Source: Hanleya hanleyi (Eukaryota > Mollusca > Polyplacophora > Lepidopleurida > Hanleyidae). From it: 64,000 nucleotides of DNA. The stretch is from NCBI GenBank assembly GCA_036873755.1, contig JAVTVY010025396.1:40467-104466 (forward strand), in the 5' to 3' direction. Below the pieces are notes generated by a model. It was given only the letters and a program-made list of their open reading frames with translations, did no database searches and was not told the DNA's origin. This document shows, piece after piece, positions 13,335-23,850 of the stretch (position 1 is the stretch's first letter; every line of letters starts with the position of its first letter). A program made the translations under genes and the position numbers.

Positions 13335-13514
13335 TGTTTTGAGGCGGCTATAAATATGTCTCTCATTAGTGCCAGTTACCATGATTACTGCCATTTACTG
13401 CCGTTGACACATTGTTAGCATGTCGTACTTCAGCCATGTTTACATCCAAAACAGCTGATCGCGAGTACTGCCTACTCCTGCAGATTGCATACGAAGTGCG
13501 CTCAATTTGGTATT
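13335..13514 (+). repeat. Upstream terminal repeat, part 1 (promoter region)
   Basis: From GAGGCGGCTATAAATATG (13341) to GGTATT (13514) it matches 23061-23234 at about 93% by eye. TATAAATA at 13349-13356 is a credible TATA box. The last six bases are the target site duplicated by the Polinton. Confidence 0.85.
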
Positions 13515-13922
13515 AGTAGAATATAAATAGACAGTTCTGGCCAGGGAAGCCGATGACGTCATAAGTAGATCGAGGTGACGTCATAAATAGGTCGAAGTCG
13601 TGCGGTGTTCGTCTATTGATCGTGTCCTGAACATAGCCCAAAGGGTTGTAGGTCAACGTCTGTTCACCGGACCGTGACAATAACCTGAGGTGTTTGCGGT
13701 GTTTTATGTCTGCTCAGCGGACCGTGTCTATATATTTTTGGTTATGGTCTATTTATGGTGCCATACTAATAGCCTGAAGGTGCGGTGTTCATCGTCTATA
13801 TATAGACCTATAACCCGGAGGTGCGGTGTTCACCGAACCATGACTATAGCGTGAGGAGTGTTTAGGGTGTTCCATATCTGTTCAGCGAGCCGTGTCTATA
13901 GTTAGCGATCGTACACGTTTGA

Positions 13923-14149
13923 TCCAACACGCATCGTATGGTGTTACAGTCAATGGCAGCCAGCCTATGAATCTACAAGTTTGAAAAATTTAAACTTCCT
14001 CTCCGGCATAACCCATGACATAGGCGAAGAGTATTACTTCGACCCCGACCAAACCAACGTTATTGTTCTGGACGATTTGATGGGTGAGGTAAAGCGCGAA
14101 GAAAAAGTTGCCGACCTATTCACCAAAGGGTCGCATCACAGAAATTTGT
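13923..14149 (+). pseudogene. Duplicated piece of the Polinton packaging ATPase (Walker B region)
   Basis: These 227 bp repeat 14321-14547 with only a few changes. They cover the Walker B part without the preceding Walker A. At the site where the other copy has a TAA stop this copy has a GAA codon, so this copy keeps the older state there. Confidence 0.88.
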
Positions 14150-14942
14150 GACTAATGAAAGCCTGTGGCTAGGACGAAACTTATACCGTTGTATAAACTG
14201 TGAGTCCGCCATACCTCGAGCATCACAACATCCATTTACTGTGATCGTCAGCGGCCCGACTGGTTGTGGGAAGACATCAAGGGTAATGAAATTTTTGGAG
14301 TCTGCTAATATCCACCCCTCTCCAACACGCATCGTATGGTGTTACAGTCAATGGCAGCCAGCCTATTAATCTACAAGTTTGAAAAATTTAAACTTCCTCC
14401 CCGGCATAACCCATGACATAGGCGAAGAGTATTACTTCGACCCCGACCAAACCAACGTTATTGTTCTGGACGATTTGATGAGTGAGGTAAAGCGCGAAGA
14501 AAAAGTTGCCGACCTATTCACCAAAGGGTCGCATCACAGAAATTTGTCCACAATTTATCTGACTCAGAATCTCTTCCCTCAAGGCAAGGCAGAGGGATTA
14601 CATACGAAGATGGATCCACCGTGGTTCAAACGGAATGAAAATGATGACGAGTCTCAGCAGAGGCAGATGATCCATAGGAGCGGGAATGAAATGGAACGAC
14701 GAAAGAGAAAATACCCTTCGGATGACGAACTCATCCATCCTGGGGGAATAGATCTAGCTACCCACTTGCGGAAACGGGTCAAATTTAACGTGTGGAAAAA
14801 CATGTTCGGTAAACCTATCGCGATAGATTGTAGGGTTGACATTGACGAGAGAAAACAGCGATATACAAGCCAAGGTTACGACGAGGATGAGTCTGGTGCA
14901 AATGCTATGGAGGATTATACTCCAACGATGATGAAGACCTAA
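14148..14942 (+). pseudogene. Polinton packaging ATPase (FtsK/HerA-like) remnant
   Basis: The sequence has a Walker A motif GPTGCGKTS near 14252-14278, then RIVWCYSQWQP, then a TAA stop at 14367-14369. It continues in the same frame from 14370 with FLPGITHD, a Walker B motif NVIVLDDLM near 14453-14479, and TKGSHHRNLSTIYLTQNLFP, a strongly conserved stretch in ATPases of Polintons and adintovirus-like elements. A charged C-terminal region with a KRRKRKYPSDDE-type patch follows, ending at 14940. These enzymes pump DNA into capsids. The N-terminus before 14148 is replaced by the duplicated piece, and the stop splits the domain between the two Walker motifs. Identity rests on motif recognition. 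Confidence 0.88.
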
Positions 14943-15142
14943 CGTCAAAAATACTACATCTCATCGTGAACATACAAAAGCTACAAACCGGTTATATTCA
15001 TAACGAGATCTTGAAAACAACGAGGCGTCTGCAAACGATATACGACATAGACTACGAGGAAACACCCAGACAGACGATTAAGATGCGGAAATGCTTATTC
15101 GATACGTTGATTGATGACGGTGATAGGGAGGGCTCCGAATAA
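14890..15142 (+). CDS. Small open frame behind the ATPase
   Basis: A frame overlapping the end of the ATPase in another register stays open for about 80 codons to TAA at 15140-15142. It contains LTSKILHLIVNIQKLQTGYIHNE and an acidic end. No ATG lies near its upstream edge, so it may be the ATPase tail after a frameshift or a separate small Polinton gene. It looks helical and is not recognised. Confidence 0.35.
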
Positions 15143-21306: not shown

Positions 21307-21749
21307 AAAGCTACAGCAGCCGCAAACTGGCTAAATGGGCTGTCACAGAGAAATTCCGGGACATGCTTTTGGTCGCAGAGTTCATTATCTTCACTGACAA
21401 TAATCCTCTCAGCTATTGGAACACAACATCTAAGCTTGGCGCCACAGGGGCAAGGTGGGCAGCGGAGCTAGCTCAGTACCAGTTTACAATTAAGTACCAC
21501 TCTGGGAGAAGCAACAGGAAAGCTGATGCCTTAAGCAGAAAAGTGGAGCACTCTGAAGCATGCCAGTTGGAGGAACTTGTTACCAGCCCTCCCCTGCTGC
21601 AAATGTCGACCCAAGTTCCGACTGAAATTGGAAAGCAGTTCCGCGAGGCTACAGCTGAGGTATGGCTTGAGGAAGTGCAGACGCGTTCGGAGCAGACAGC
21701 CCCTGTGTGTGTTTCAGCTTTCGCTACAATAGTGCCGTCTGAGATCTGA
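21303..21749 (+). pseudogene. Gypsy Pol: RNase H end, frameshifted from RT
   Basis: The frame overlaps the RT ORF end by a few bases. It shows YSSRKLAKWAVTEKFRDML, FIIFTDNNPLSYW (with one RNase H Asp) and YHSGRSNRKADALSR, the standard end of gypsy RNase H. The start of the domain lies in the RT frame, and the break is near 21240-21300. The ORF stops at a TGA at 21747. Confidence 0.88.
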
Positions 21750-22013
21750 TCCAACTATTAACCGACTCCGTTATTACTGGGACGTCAACCTACACCTGCC
21801 GAGCTAAACAAGGAACCGAAGTCAGTGCGGAAACTCTTCCGGTCATGGGGCCGTGTTGTGGTGAAGTCGGGTATCCTTTACCGTAAGTGCAACATCCGTG
21901 GTAAAGTGGTGCACCAGCTGATCTTGCCTTTATTCTTGAGGAAGCAAGTGTTGACAGAAGTTCACGACAAGTCTGAACATCAGGCCGCTGATTGCACATA
22001 AGGAATTCTGCAG
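21750..22013 (+). pseudogene. Integrase N-terminal (H2C2) region, frame-broken
   Basis: In another frame the segment 21785-22003 reads KLFRSWGRVVVKSGILYRKC and then VHDKSEHQAADCT before a stop. This is the histidine half of the integrase zinc finger, with Glu where Gly usually sits. The cysteine half (CRTGSRC) follows in the next ORF. Confidence 0.72.
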
Positions 22014-23138
22014 ATGAGGTGCTACTGGATAGGGATGAAGGCAGATGCGCGAAACCATTGCAGAACTGGTTCGAGATGTGCAATGTCCAAGTTCGGCAAC
22101 AAAATTACACCTACGCTGGGATCTCTTATTACAAAGAAGCCATCGGAAGTGTTTGCAATTGATTACACTGTTCTCGAGAAATCCTGTGGCATGGAAGATG
22201 TCCTAGTCATGACGGATGTATTTACAAAATATACTCAGGCAGTGGCCACAGTCGACCAAAAGACGACCACAGTAGCGAGAGTGCTGGTTAAGGATTGGTT
22301 TGTGAGGTTCGGCGTACCCTTGCGTATACATAGTGATAGAGGTCGAAACTTCGAAGCAGATGTTATCCGAGAGCTTTGTTCAATATATGATGTTTCTAGA
22401 AGCAAAACTACCCCATATCATCCCCAGGGAAATGGCTCCTGCGAGCGTTTCAATAGGACCATGCATGATCTCCTCAGATCCTTGCCTCCAGCAAAGAAAC
22501 GAGTGTGGCCCAAATACCTGGCCGAGGTGGTGTACGCTTATAATTGCACTCCCCATGCATCAACCAGCTACTCTCCATACTACCTCTTTTTTGGACGAGA
22601 TTCGAGACTTCCTGTAGATAACTTGTTGGGACTTAATGAAGGCGAGGAGTACGACAGTGTTGGTGACTGGGTCACAGATCATTATCTTCGTCTGAAAGAG
22701 GCTTTCCATTTGGCTTCATCAAAGACGGAAAAGGAGGCACTGAGACGCCAGAAGTTACACGATCGACGGGCACAGGAGACCAGCCTGCCCATTGGTGCTC
22801 GGGTCTTCGTACGTGACAGAAGTTACCGGGATCGACATAAAATCCAAGATGTGTGGTGCCACACTCCCTACCGTATCATAGGACGCCCGAACCCAGATGG
22901 ACACGTGTATGTAGTCGAACCCCTTCATGGTGATACAGCTTCAAAAACTCTGCAGAGGACCGACCTCCTGGATGCAAGGGACCTTGTCAGTGATCTACAT
23001 GTACCAAATGTTAAACCGGACCAAATGTCGAGGCGCCAAACTCACAGCAGGGAAGTGTGTGAGGTGGCTATAAATATGACTCTCATTAGTGCCAATTACC
23101 ATGATTACTGCCATTTATTGTCGTTGACACATTGTTAG
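22014..23138 (+). pseudogene. Gypsy integrase core and C-terminal domain
   Basis: The core shows the D,D,E residues in FAIDYT, HSDRGRNFEAD and GSCERFNRT, then the conserved WPKYLAEVVYAYNCTPHAST and SPYYLFFGRDSRLPVD. A C-terminal PIGARVFVRD and PYRIIGRPNPDGHVYVVEP form the SH3-like region. It is the best-kept part of the element. The open frame runs through the polypurine stretch into the downstream repeat, so the last roughly 27 residues are not true integrase. The enzyme inserts element DNA into chromosomes; here it lacks an intact N-terminus and a joined Pol. Confidence 0.92.
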
Positions 23139-23850
23139 CGTGTCGTACTTCAGCCATGTTTATGTCCAAAACAGCTGATCGCGAGTACTGCCGACTGCTG
23201 CCGATTGCATACGAAGTGCAGTCAATTTGGTATTCAGTGGTTAGTTTTTATTATAAGCTCATGTATTTAATTTCTATGGGTGATTAGATAGTTATAGGTT
23301 TCACTAAATGAAGAAAAAGTATATTTTTGAAATGCGAACACGTGCGTTTGTGTTCTATAAGGCTGTCACGTGATGAACGCTGTGGCCATCTTTCGATCGA
23401 AGGAAACAGGTTGTGAAAATCCTTCAGGCGAACCTTTTAGATGAGTTTGCCATTTCGTTACGCTGTGTGAAGCCAGCTTGTTGTCATGGTGACGGCGATG
23501 CTTCGTTGTGCGTTTCGTGGGTTGTAAGCAAAGTCACAGCTCCCCAATTTCGTGGCATCCGTATGGAAGACTGGCCACATTGTTAGAGTATGGTGGACCA
23601 GTAGTGGCTTCCTGGTAAAACTCCATTTTCGTGTTCATCTTGTACCCTGGTCAGACAGGGGATCAGTTGCCCTCCCGGGTAAACACTGTACGCATGGGTT
23701 GAGTTGATGAGCAATACATAGCAAGTCTTCACCACCATCCTGAGTTGTGTTGTTTTCTGTTGCTAAATTCTACCCGCCGCCACATTTGACAAGATATAAA
23801 TAGTATTATCATAATAACTATGATTGTTCCCTTAAACCTAATAAACGCTT
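23057..23850 (+). repeat. Downstream terminal repeat, in spliced form
   Basis: It starts TGTGAGGTGGC after the purine-rich AGCAGGGAAG. It has TATAAATA at 23069-23076, then joins exon 1, exon 2 and exon 3 of the upstream copy without introns (junctions near 23438/23441 and 23554/23555). After 23661 it continues with GATCAGTTGCCCTCCCGGG, which has no match upstream. AATAAA at 23840-23845 is a likely polyadenylation signal. Confidence 0.85.

Follow-up and report, generated by a model that had tools for sequence, protein, structure and literature searches.

A stretch of 64,000 nt from the mollusc Hanleya hanleyi (assembly GCA_036873755.1, contig JAVTVY010025396.1, forward strand, positions 40,467–104,466; hereafter the window) contains a retrotransposon whose upstream long terminal repeat (LTR) holds introns that its downstream LTR has lost. 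Comparison with other copies in the assembly makes it very probable that this element is a composite belonging to a clade of Ty3/gypsy elements with introns in their LTRs, that the spliced form has been captured repeatedly and that the introns lie in the R region. The family itself appears to have three complete introns inside its LTRs, with both intron-bearing and spliced forms integrating normally. Retrotransposition is expected to erase introns, and introns in R should vanish first because every cycle copies R at both ends.

The downstream LTR (23058–23784, 727 bp) matches the upstream one in blocks, and the breaks between blocks are GT–AG introns. The pairs 13340–13514/23060–23234, 16835–17047/23228–23440, 17358–17471/23441–23554 and 17804–17909/23555–23660 differ at 13 of 175, 13 of 213, 3 of 114 and 3 of 106 positions, respectively. 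The upstream LTR, on the forward strand like the gag–pol part and the downstream LTR, is of the intron-bearing type and opens with the first part of exon 1 (13338–13514, by homology to 23058–23234), its start differing at one base from those of other family LTRs. The second part of exon 1 (16835–17047, by homology to the 3′ LTR) is followed by intron 1 (17048–17357; 310 bp, GTAATT...GACGCAG), exon 2 (17358–17471), intron 2 (17472–17803; 332 bp, GTGAGT...TATGCAG) and exon 3 (17804–17909); these introns are placed by splice scores and a table of copies, the exons by homology. Intron 3 (17910–18559), recognized by its donor GTAAGT at 17910 and its match to other copies, is truncated at its 3′ end. 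In other copies intron 2 is mostly 342–344 bp, and intron 3 in several of them is about 737 bp and ends TTTCTCAG. The sequence-only reading had described the matching blocks, the GT...AG extras of 310 and 332 bp and the third donor, and coordinates and splice scores agree with it.

Downstream of intron 3 lies a 122-bp filler at a deletion join (18560–18681). It is unlike the retrieved copies, with no match among the retrieved family stretches at E 1e-6, and local alignment to five copies resumes at 18682. Other copies have the end of intron 3, exon 4, the primer-binding site (PBS), the leader and the gag N terminus (about 1.1 kb) in this position. A candidate intron-3 acceptor at 18643–18649 was rejected, the site being filler. 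The C-terminal part of gag and pol (18682–23021) follow with broken frames and recognizable reverse transcriptase (RT), RNase H and integrase; the Pfam domains RVT_1, RT_RNaseH_2, RT_RNaseH and rve match along 19123–23135 in the order RT–RNase H–integrase. The closest named integrase relative is from Strongylocentrotus purpuratus (60%). Comparison with other copies places the end of the pol region and the polypurine tract CAGCAGGGAAG at 23022–23057. The spliced-type downstream LTR comprises exon 1 (23058–23440), exon 2 (23441–23554) and exon 3 (23555–23660), assigned by homology, and exon 4 (23661–23784), which ends CCGCCACA and was delimited against other copies. The sequence at 23661, whose origin had been a question of the sequence-only reading, is thus exon 4: it follows intron 3 in other copies and is deleted from the upstream LTR. 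That reading had also carried the 3′ repeat on to 23850; the LTR ends at 23784 (CACA), what lies beyond is flank, and a TATA (23795) and polyadenylation-signal (AATAAA, 23840) pair tried as second LTR signals was rejected because it falls outside.

The window copy is decayed. Its match to a relative's gag begins only at residue 132, the DTG motif of the protease is lost, the PBS is deleted, and the pol tail found in relatives is gone, about 0.5 kb being deleted at 23022–23057 (a gap of about 552 bp against copy C42843 and similar against others). The missing gag N terminus and pol tail had prompted the idea that the gag–pol piece is a fragment inside a host intron; this was rejected, and both gaps are deletions in the window copy, because other copies fill both regions. 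Exon 1 of the upstream LTR is split by a later Polinton/Maverick-like insertion (13515–16834, 3.3 kb), placed by its terminal inverted repeats of about 0.4 kb, which begin AG, and a 6-bp duplication, GGTATT. It contains an internal duplication of 227 bp and broken ATPase-like frames with a weak ATPase profile match, and we take it to be a Polinton/Maverick-like deletion derivative.

We sought further copies in the window's own assembly (2.48 Gb, 52,793 contigs), reading the best 40 of 131 candidates for the element, 40 of 69 for the intron block, 40 of 53 for intron 3 and 109 of 11507 for integrase and pol, so that copy numbers are lower bounds. Both ends were retrieved for 13 elements; the window element is the 14th and C12948 the 15th. 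Their LTRs fall into class B (1.9–2.2 kb with three introns) and class A (about 727 bp, intronless). Nine elements carry B LTRs at both ends (C42843, C5249, C52147, C917, C18400, C20101, C37700, C32448 and C43566), although two 3′ LTRs (C5249 and C32448) are interrupted and extend past the retrieved stretch and a third (C37700) is missing part of intron 1 and exon 2. Four carry A LTRs at both ends, C33784 and C904 completely and C19202 and C34699 at their surviving junctions. The window element is mixed, intron-bearing at its 5′ end and spliced at its 3′ end, and C12948 is mixed in another way, with a spliced inverted leader at the 5′ end against an intron-bearing 3′ LTR. The introns are therefore no peculiarity of the window element, as the sequence-only reading had treated them, and the survey of the assembly that it proposed yielded both intron-bearing and spliced LTRs. 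No copies were found in viral and prokaryote contig collections; three distant gypsy relatives matched in prokaryote records.

The family LTR has exons of 383, 114, 106 and 124 bp and introns of about 310, 342 and 737 bp. It runs from TGTGAGG to CCACA, with the polypurine tract CAGCAGGGAAG upstream and, 3 nt downstream, the PBS TGGTGTCAGAAGTGGGAT (differing at one base in C20101), which we take to be of tRNA-Leu type. Target-site duplications (TSDs) of 4 bp flank the B elements C52147 (GTAT), C917 (CTAG), C18400 (AAAA), C20101 (ATAA) and C43566 (ATAA), as well as C37700 (AAAC) if one base was lost at its LTR start, and the A element C33784 (ACGG). C42843 and the window element (ATGT/TTTG) have no matching TSD. 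Across nine measured LTR pairs, divergence is 0.09–2.07% in B and 1.79% and 2.67% in the two A pairs. The least diverged pairs are those of C18400 (0.09%; 2 of 2141 positions, 3 indels) and C52147 (0.28%), and the youngest insertions measured therefore carry introns. Among the matches listed, the longest unbroken pol frame (1473 aa) occurs in C52147, C917 and C12948, and the longest frame at the integrase of A elements has 709 aa and one stop (C34699). Gag frames of 316–322 aa are open in the A copies C49588 and C19202.

The splice sites stand out by rank and recur across copies. With an approximate matrix assembled from recall and scored across about 64,000 window positions, the donors at 17048 and 17472 ranked 257th and 16th, that at 17910 was second best within 16800–19300, and the acceptors at 17357 and 17803 ranked 168th and 80th. 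In a table of 20 B LTRs these sites are largely conserved, the usual donors being GTAATT, GTGAGT and GTAAGT and the usual acceptors ending CGCAG, TTCAG and CTCAG; a few single copies deviate. Exon 4 of C18400 begins with a 12-bp tandem duplication, the CTCAG edge lying 12 bp before an apparent ACCC end of intron 3; about half of the rows show this ACCC end, and the others among them probably carry the same duplication. Exact words were counted over the assembly against reversed-pattern controls. The spliced exon 2/exon 3 word occurs 16 times (control 0), 14 of them in family copies and two, at C13137 and C18224, in unrelated sequence; the spliced exon 3/exon 4 word occurs 14 times (control 0); and the unspliced word across the exon-2 donor occurs 37 times (control 0), its context having been read for part of these. 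The spliced exon 1/exon 2 word is weak taken alone, because its control reaches 4 against 10, and all 10 are at family copies known by other means. This assembly-wide recurrence agrees with the proposal that the downstream repeat looks derived from spliced RNA and that the upstream one is unspliced. In C16493 (L059, 2455–2927), joined exons 1 and 2 of a 3′ LTR break exactly at the exon-2 donor into unrelated sequence, possibly a splice to an outside exon.

Phylogenies of the LTR exons indicate that spliced LTRs arose more than once. Of two exon trees, the second comprised 34 rows (12 A and 22 B); the C19202 5′ LTR and row C34699_3A2 were dropped from it, and its row C12948_5A is the inverted arm of C1780, since the arm in C12948 is interrupted. 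A single clade of spliced LTRs was rejected by the approximately unbiased (AU) test (p-AU 1.1e-5 for 12 versus 22 rows; 0.0187 without C12948 and C12204). The A rows require six label changes on this second tree, and its well supported (starred) branches force three. Spliced LTRs do not form one clade, and splicing was therefore captured repeatedly. One round of reverse transcription should give matching LTRs, as the sequence-only reading had reasoned, and most element pairs do group: in the second tree those of C52147, C32448, C37700, C43566, C5249, C33784, C904 and C34699, and in the first those of C19202 and C20101, the latter pair being split by C12948 in the second tree (support 85/80). 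The LTRs of C917 and C18400 fall in multifurcations, and neither the window element nor C42843 has LTRs that group together.

On the exon tree, spliced copies branch from within the intron-bearing ones. Intron-block matches are 83–100% alike and intron 3 matches 90–100% (among the matches listed), and in retrieved copies the neighbours of the intron block are LTR exons. Each of three variants of the exon-1 end (tag, tgg and a tandem duplication) is shared by spliced and unspliced copies; these shared variants, with intron-bearing matches only 83–84% alike, argue that the introns were lost through RNA and not gained. Between B elements, introns diverge by 2.0–3.1%, no more than the U3 region (3.4%); C42843_5B, identical to C5249_5B, was omitted here.

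Evidence for the position of the RNA 5′ end comes from C12948 and from C1780, which is 97% alike over 2.9 kb including flank and is probably the other haplotype. Their 5′ end begins with a backward arm of exons 4, 3 and 2 and the end of exon 1 (the spliced leader inverted), complete in C1780 and interrupted in C12948. It is followed, in forward orientation, by exon 2 from nt ~46–54, exon 3, exon 4, the PBS and gag. C12948 keeps every intron in its 3′ LTR; a U5 end forms each outer border of the element, and its flanks share the 4-bp TAAT. The backward arm stops at LTR nt 326–334, at GTCGCCATC, and the fold-back point has a microhomology of 8 nt that exactly matches exon 2 of C42843-type copies. 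The arm, taken from C1780, and the 3′ LTR of C12948 show 100% identity over 405 columns. This 5′ end looks like self-primed minus strong-stop complementary DNA (cDNA) whose synthesis reached the 5′ end of a spliced RNA and which then folded back; self-priming of strong-stop DNA is described for HIV-1 (PMC4668388). If the arm ends at the RNA 5′ end, all three introns lie in R, and the fossil suggests that transcription of the window's 5′ LTR would have started within GTCGCCATC in exon 1 (16835–17047). In C12948, moreover, a spliced 5′ R and an unspliced 3′ LTR occur in one element, a mixed state for which two co-packaged RNAs could be an alternative source.

These observations suggest the following cycle. 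Transcription would start in exon 1 at LTR nt ~326–334, placing the introns in R, and RNAs would be polyadenylated within exon 4. Unspliced RNA would retrotranspose and give introns in both new LTRs. In standard LTR reverse transcription, strand transfer gives both LTRs whatever splicing state the 5′ R had; occasional reverse transcription of RNA spliced in its 5′ R would thus produce an intronless minus strong-stop DNA and two spliced LTRs. This predicted outcome, LTRs spliced on both sides, is observed in C33784, C904 and, in a sister family, C6008, and at the surviving junctions of C19202 and C34699.

LTR introns extend to two sister families. In family 2, the integrase is 82% alike and the 1741-bp LTR has three introns. 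No blastn similarity to the LTR of the window family (family 1) was detected; 13 of 45 match rows for the family 2 LTR start at query base 1 or 9 and reach 1741 without a break, two of them in C32723 at LTR-sized places 7.7 kb apart. All three introns are removed in C47591 and in C4199 (three places), and the joins read in C47591 and at one C4199 place fit GT–AG. Families 1 and 2 have in common 18 bases across the last exon–intron edge, CAGACAGGG|GTAAGTTTA; alignment of seven exon and intron segments between them gave no score above the shuffled range. Family 3 (72–75% alike) has four LTR introns, and its LTR shares only short stretches with those of families 1 and 2. All introns are kept in the C17033 5′ LTR, the C4608 3′ LTR and one C1569 LTR; intron 1 is missing from the C17033 3′ LTR and the C4608 5′ LTR; introns 1 and 2 are missing from C11575 and C35320; and both LTRs of C6008 (TSD CAAC) lack all four. 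The family 3 LTRs readable across thus form a nested series in which 5′ introns go first, the remaining match rows being partial. This order is what RNA copied while splicing proceeds stepwise would leave, and it does not suit early strand transfer: premature minus-strand transfer that keeps introns was considered and rejected, as it predicts that PBS-proximal (3′) introns are lost first and family 3 shows the reverse. In family 1 no clean partial form was found among the copies read; C13002 keeps introns 2 and 3, and its exon 1/intron 1 stretch is rearranged.

The best reading of the window element itself, and the simplest account of it, is that a deletion joined two insertions that differ in age. 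Its 3′ LTR groups with the spliced LTR of C49588 as sister, on a private branch of 0.0042, and its 5′ LTR is an old B type with a branch of 0.034. The deletion, with its filler, would have brought an old intron-bearing 5′ LTR next to the body and 3′ LTR of a spliced element of younger age. It is unlikely, although a chance worth keeping in view, that the window element is instead an assembly chimera of an intron-bearing and a spliced copy, which would leave the biology of the family unaffected. The element has no TSD, and C42843 likewise joins unlike LTRs, but the join lies outside shared sequence and its 122-bp filler is unlike the retrieved copies. Similarly improbable is that a spliced cDNA converted one LTR of an intact element or recombined with it, recombination being an option that the sequence-only reading had raised and that keeps some weight beside the better reading of two joined insertions. 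The mixed LTR state, the absent TSD and the similar mixtures in family 3 (C17033 and C4608) would suit it; the private divergence of the two LTRs, however, is very unequal, and the PBS, exon 4 and the start of gag are missing at the filler join, as a deletion between two insertions predicts.

It is very improbable that the LTRs were originally intronless and received the extra blocks as mobile, introner-like introns, even if the introns sit at what we take to be proto-splice-like sites: in the intron-bearing copies read, each site holds the same intron sequence (some matches only 83–84% alike), spliced copies branch from within the intron-bearing ones, losses in family 3 are nested from the 5′ side, and the spliced leader of C12948 ends at an apparent RNA 5′ end. 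Least probable by a little is that the repeats are host-gene exons retrocopied by the element (LTR-mediated retroposition), or a captured host promoter with leader exons as the sequence-only reading had offered: an E-box (16974) and a YY1-like word (16992) in the second part of exon 1 presumably resemble a host promoter, but TG...CACA ends, PBS, polypurine tract, TSDs and tens of copies identify the repeats as LTRs, and no host-gene source or separate source locus was recognized among the matches listed for the intron block and intron 3, part of which were read in context.

Several points weigh against the account of repeated capture from elements with introns in R. Splicing, the RNA start (one fossil) and the polyadenylation site (exon 4) are read from DNA, and among polyadenylation-like words in five LTRs, exon 4 has only AATACA, ATTAAA and CATAAA lying in introns. 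Splice sites are damaged in several single copies, including C42056, one of the intron-bearing matches 83–84% alike, which has introns 1 and 2 in place and a changed third donor, and the fourth donor of the C17033 5′ LTR is damaged. In C17033 (L076, L077) and C4608, intron 1 is present in one LTR only, in opposite orders, possibly through a tandem array or recombination. The TSD set excludes C5249, C32448, C49588, C19202 and C34699, and that of C904 (ATTG/TTTG) agrees at three of four bases. Many branches of the exon tree are unstarred. The window join is known from one assembly, and assembly chimeras may occur here, given the unlike LTRs and missing TSD of C42843: its 5′ LTR shares 2127 identical bases with the C5249 5′ LTR, and its 3′ LTR is of another subtype. 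C42843 (L034, L035) is a recombinant or a misassembly.

HTLV-1 and foamy viruses carry a splice donor in R; there R is not known to hold more than the donor, whereas here it would contain three or four complete introns, each with donor and acceptor. Penelope-like elements have a telomerase-like RT. In the open-licence PMC literature, covered mostly at title and abstract level, we found no LTR described as holding introns; PMC4256276 concerns the bacterial gene ltrB, not LTRs. The nearest likeness in process is to SpIREs, in which leader-spliced L1 RNA is copied into the genome beside unspliced copies (PMC5860796). SpIREs are by definition of L1 origin and L1 lacks LTRs, whereas the elements here are LTR elements with complete introns in both LTRs in three families; the two only work alike. 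Intron-carrying Penelope-like elements retain introns, have terminal repeats and have been discussed in terms of self-priming for inverted arrangements; PMC3846280 contrasts their spread of intron-containing genes with all other retrotransposon types. They differ in having a GIY-YIG endonuclease and another RT, the window element having an rve integrase, a gypsy RT and introns in the repeat. The plant elements Ogre and EVADE and Cer1 of C. elegans use their unspliced and spliced RNAs for separate purposes, and in Cer1 a protein from spliced mRNA is required to export the unspliced RNA (PMC12786077); there the intron or regulated splicing lies in the body of the element, and the passages covered describe no intron inside an LTR. 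The echinoderm Ty3/gypsy (Metaviridae) relatives resemble this family in integrase and in a C-terminal pol tail corresponding to the ~0.5-kb stretch of the other family copies; the comparison is by proteins, and our literature searches showed no LTR introns described for them.

Elsewhere in the window, two open frames at 3253–5213 resemble a Penelope-like element, with no Pfam match and what we take to be a GIY-YIG-type motif, and an RT frame (RVT_1) at 30738–31739 is presumably LINE-like. A 1.3-kb tandem duplication (9217–11888, 99.6% identical) contains 29-bp AT-rich repeats, a 449-bp repeat is inverted between 24461–24909 and 50816–51264 (91% identical), and a tandem array of ~111-bp units at 41557–42173 is open in two frames.

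The persistence of introns in recently inserted elements and in three families makes intron retention by retroelements testable. Spliced and unspliced LTRs are DNA fossils that would record the splicing state of the RNA that was reverse transcribed. Two LTRs that differ for a known reason matter for dating by LTR divergence, and repeat annotation could classify spliced and unspliced LTRs of one family as unrelated. As computed for C18400, the spliced leader has 717 nt and 15 ATGs, against 2110 nt and 48 ATGs unspliced. We suggest tentatively, with the balance somewhat against it, that the introns in R are functional in the life cycle of the clade: spliced RNA would serve translation, and regulated retention of all the 5′ R introns would mark the RNA to be reverse transcribed. 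If so, the introns would have been kept through retrotransposition across the split of the three families, and spliced cDNAs would be recurrent by-products.

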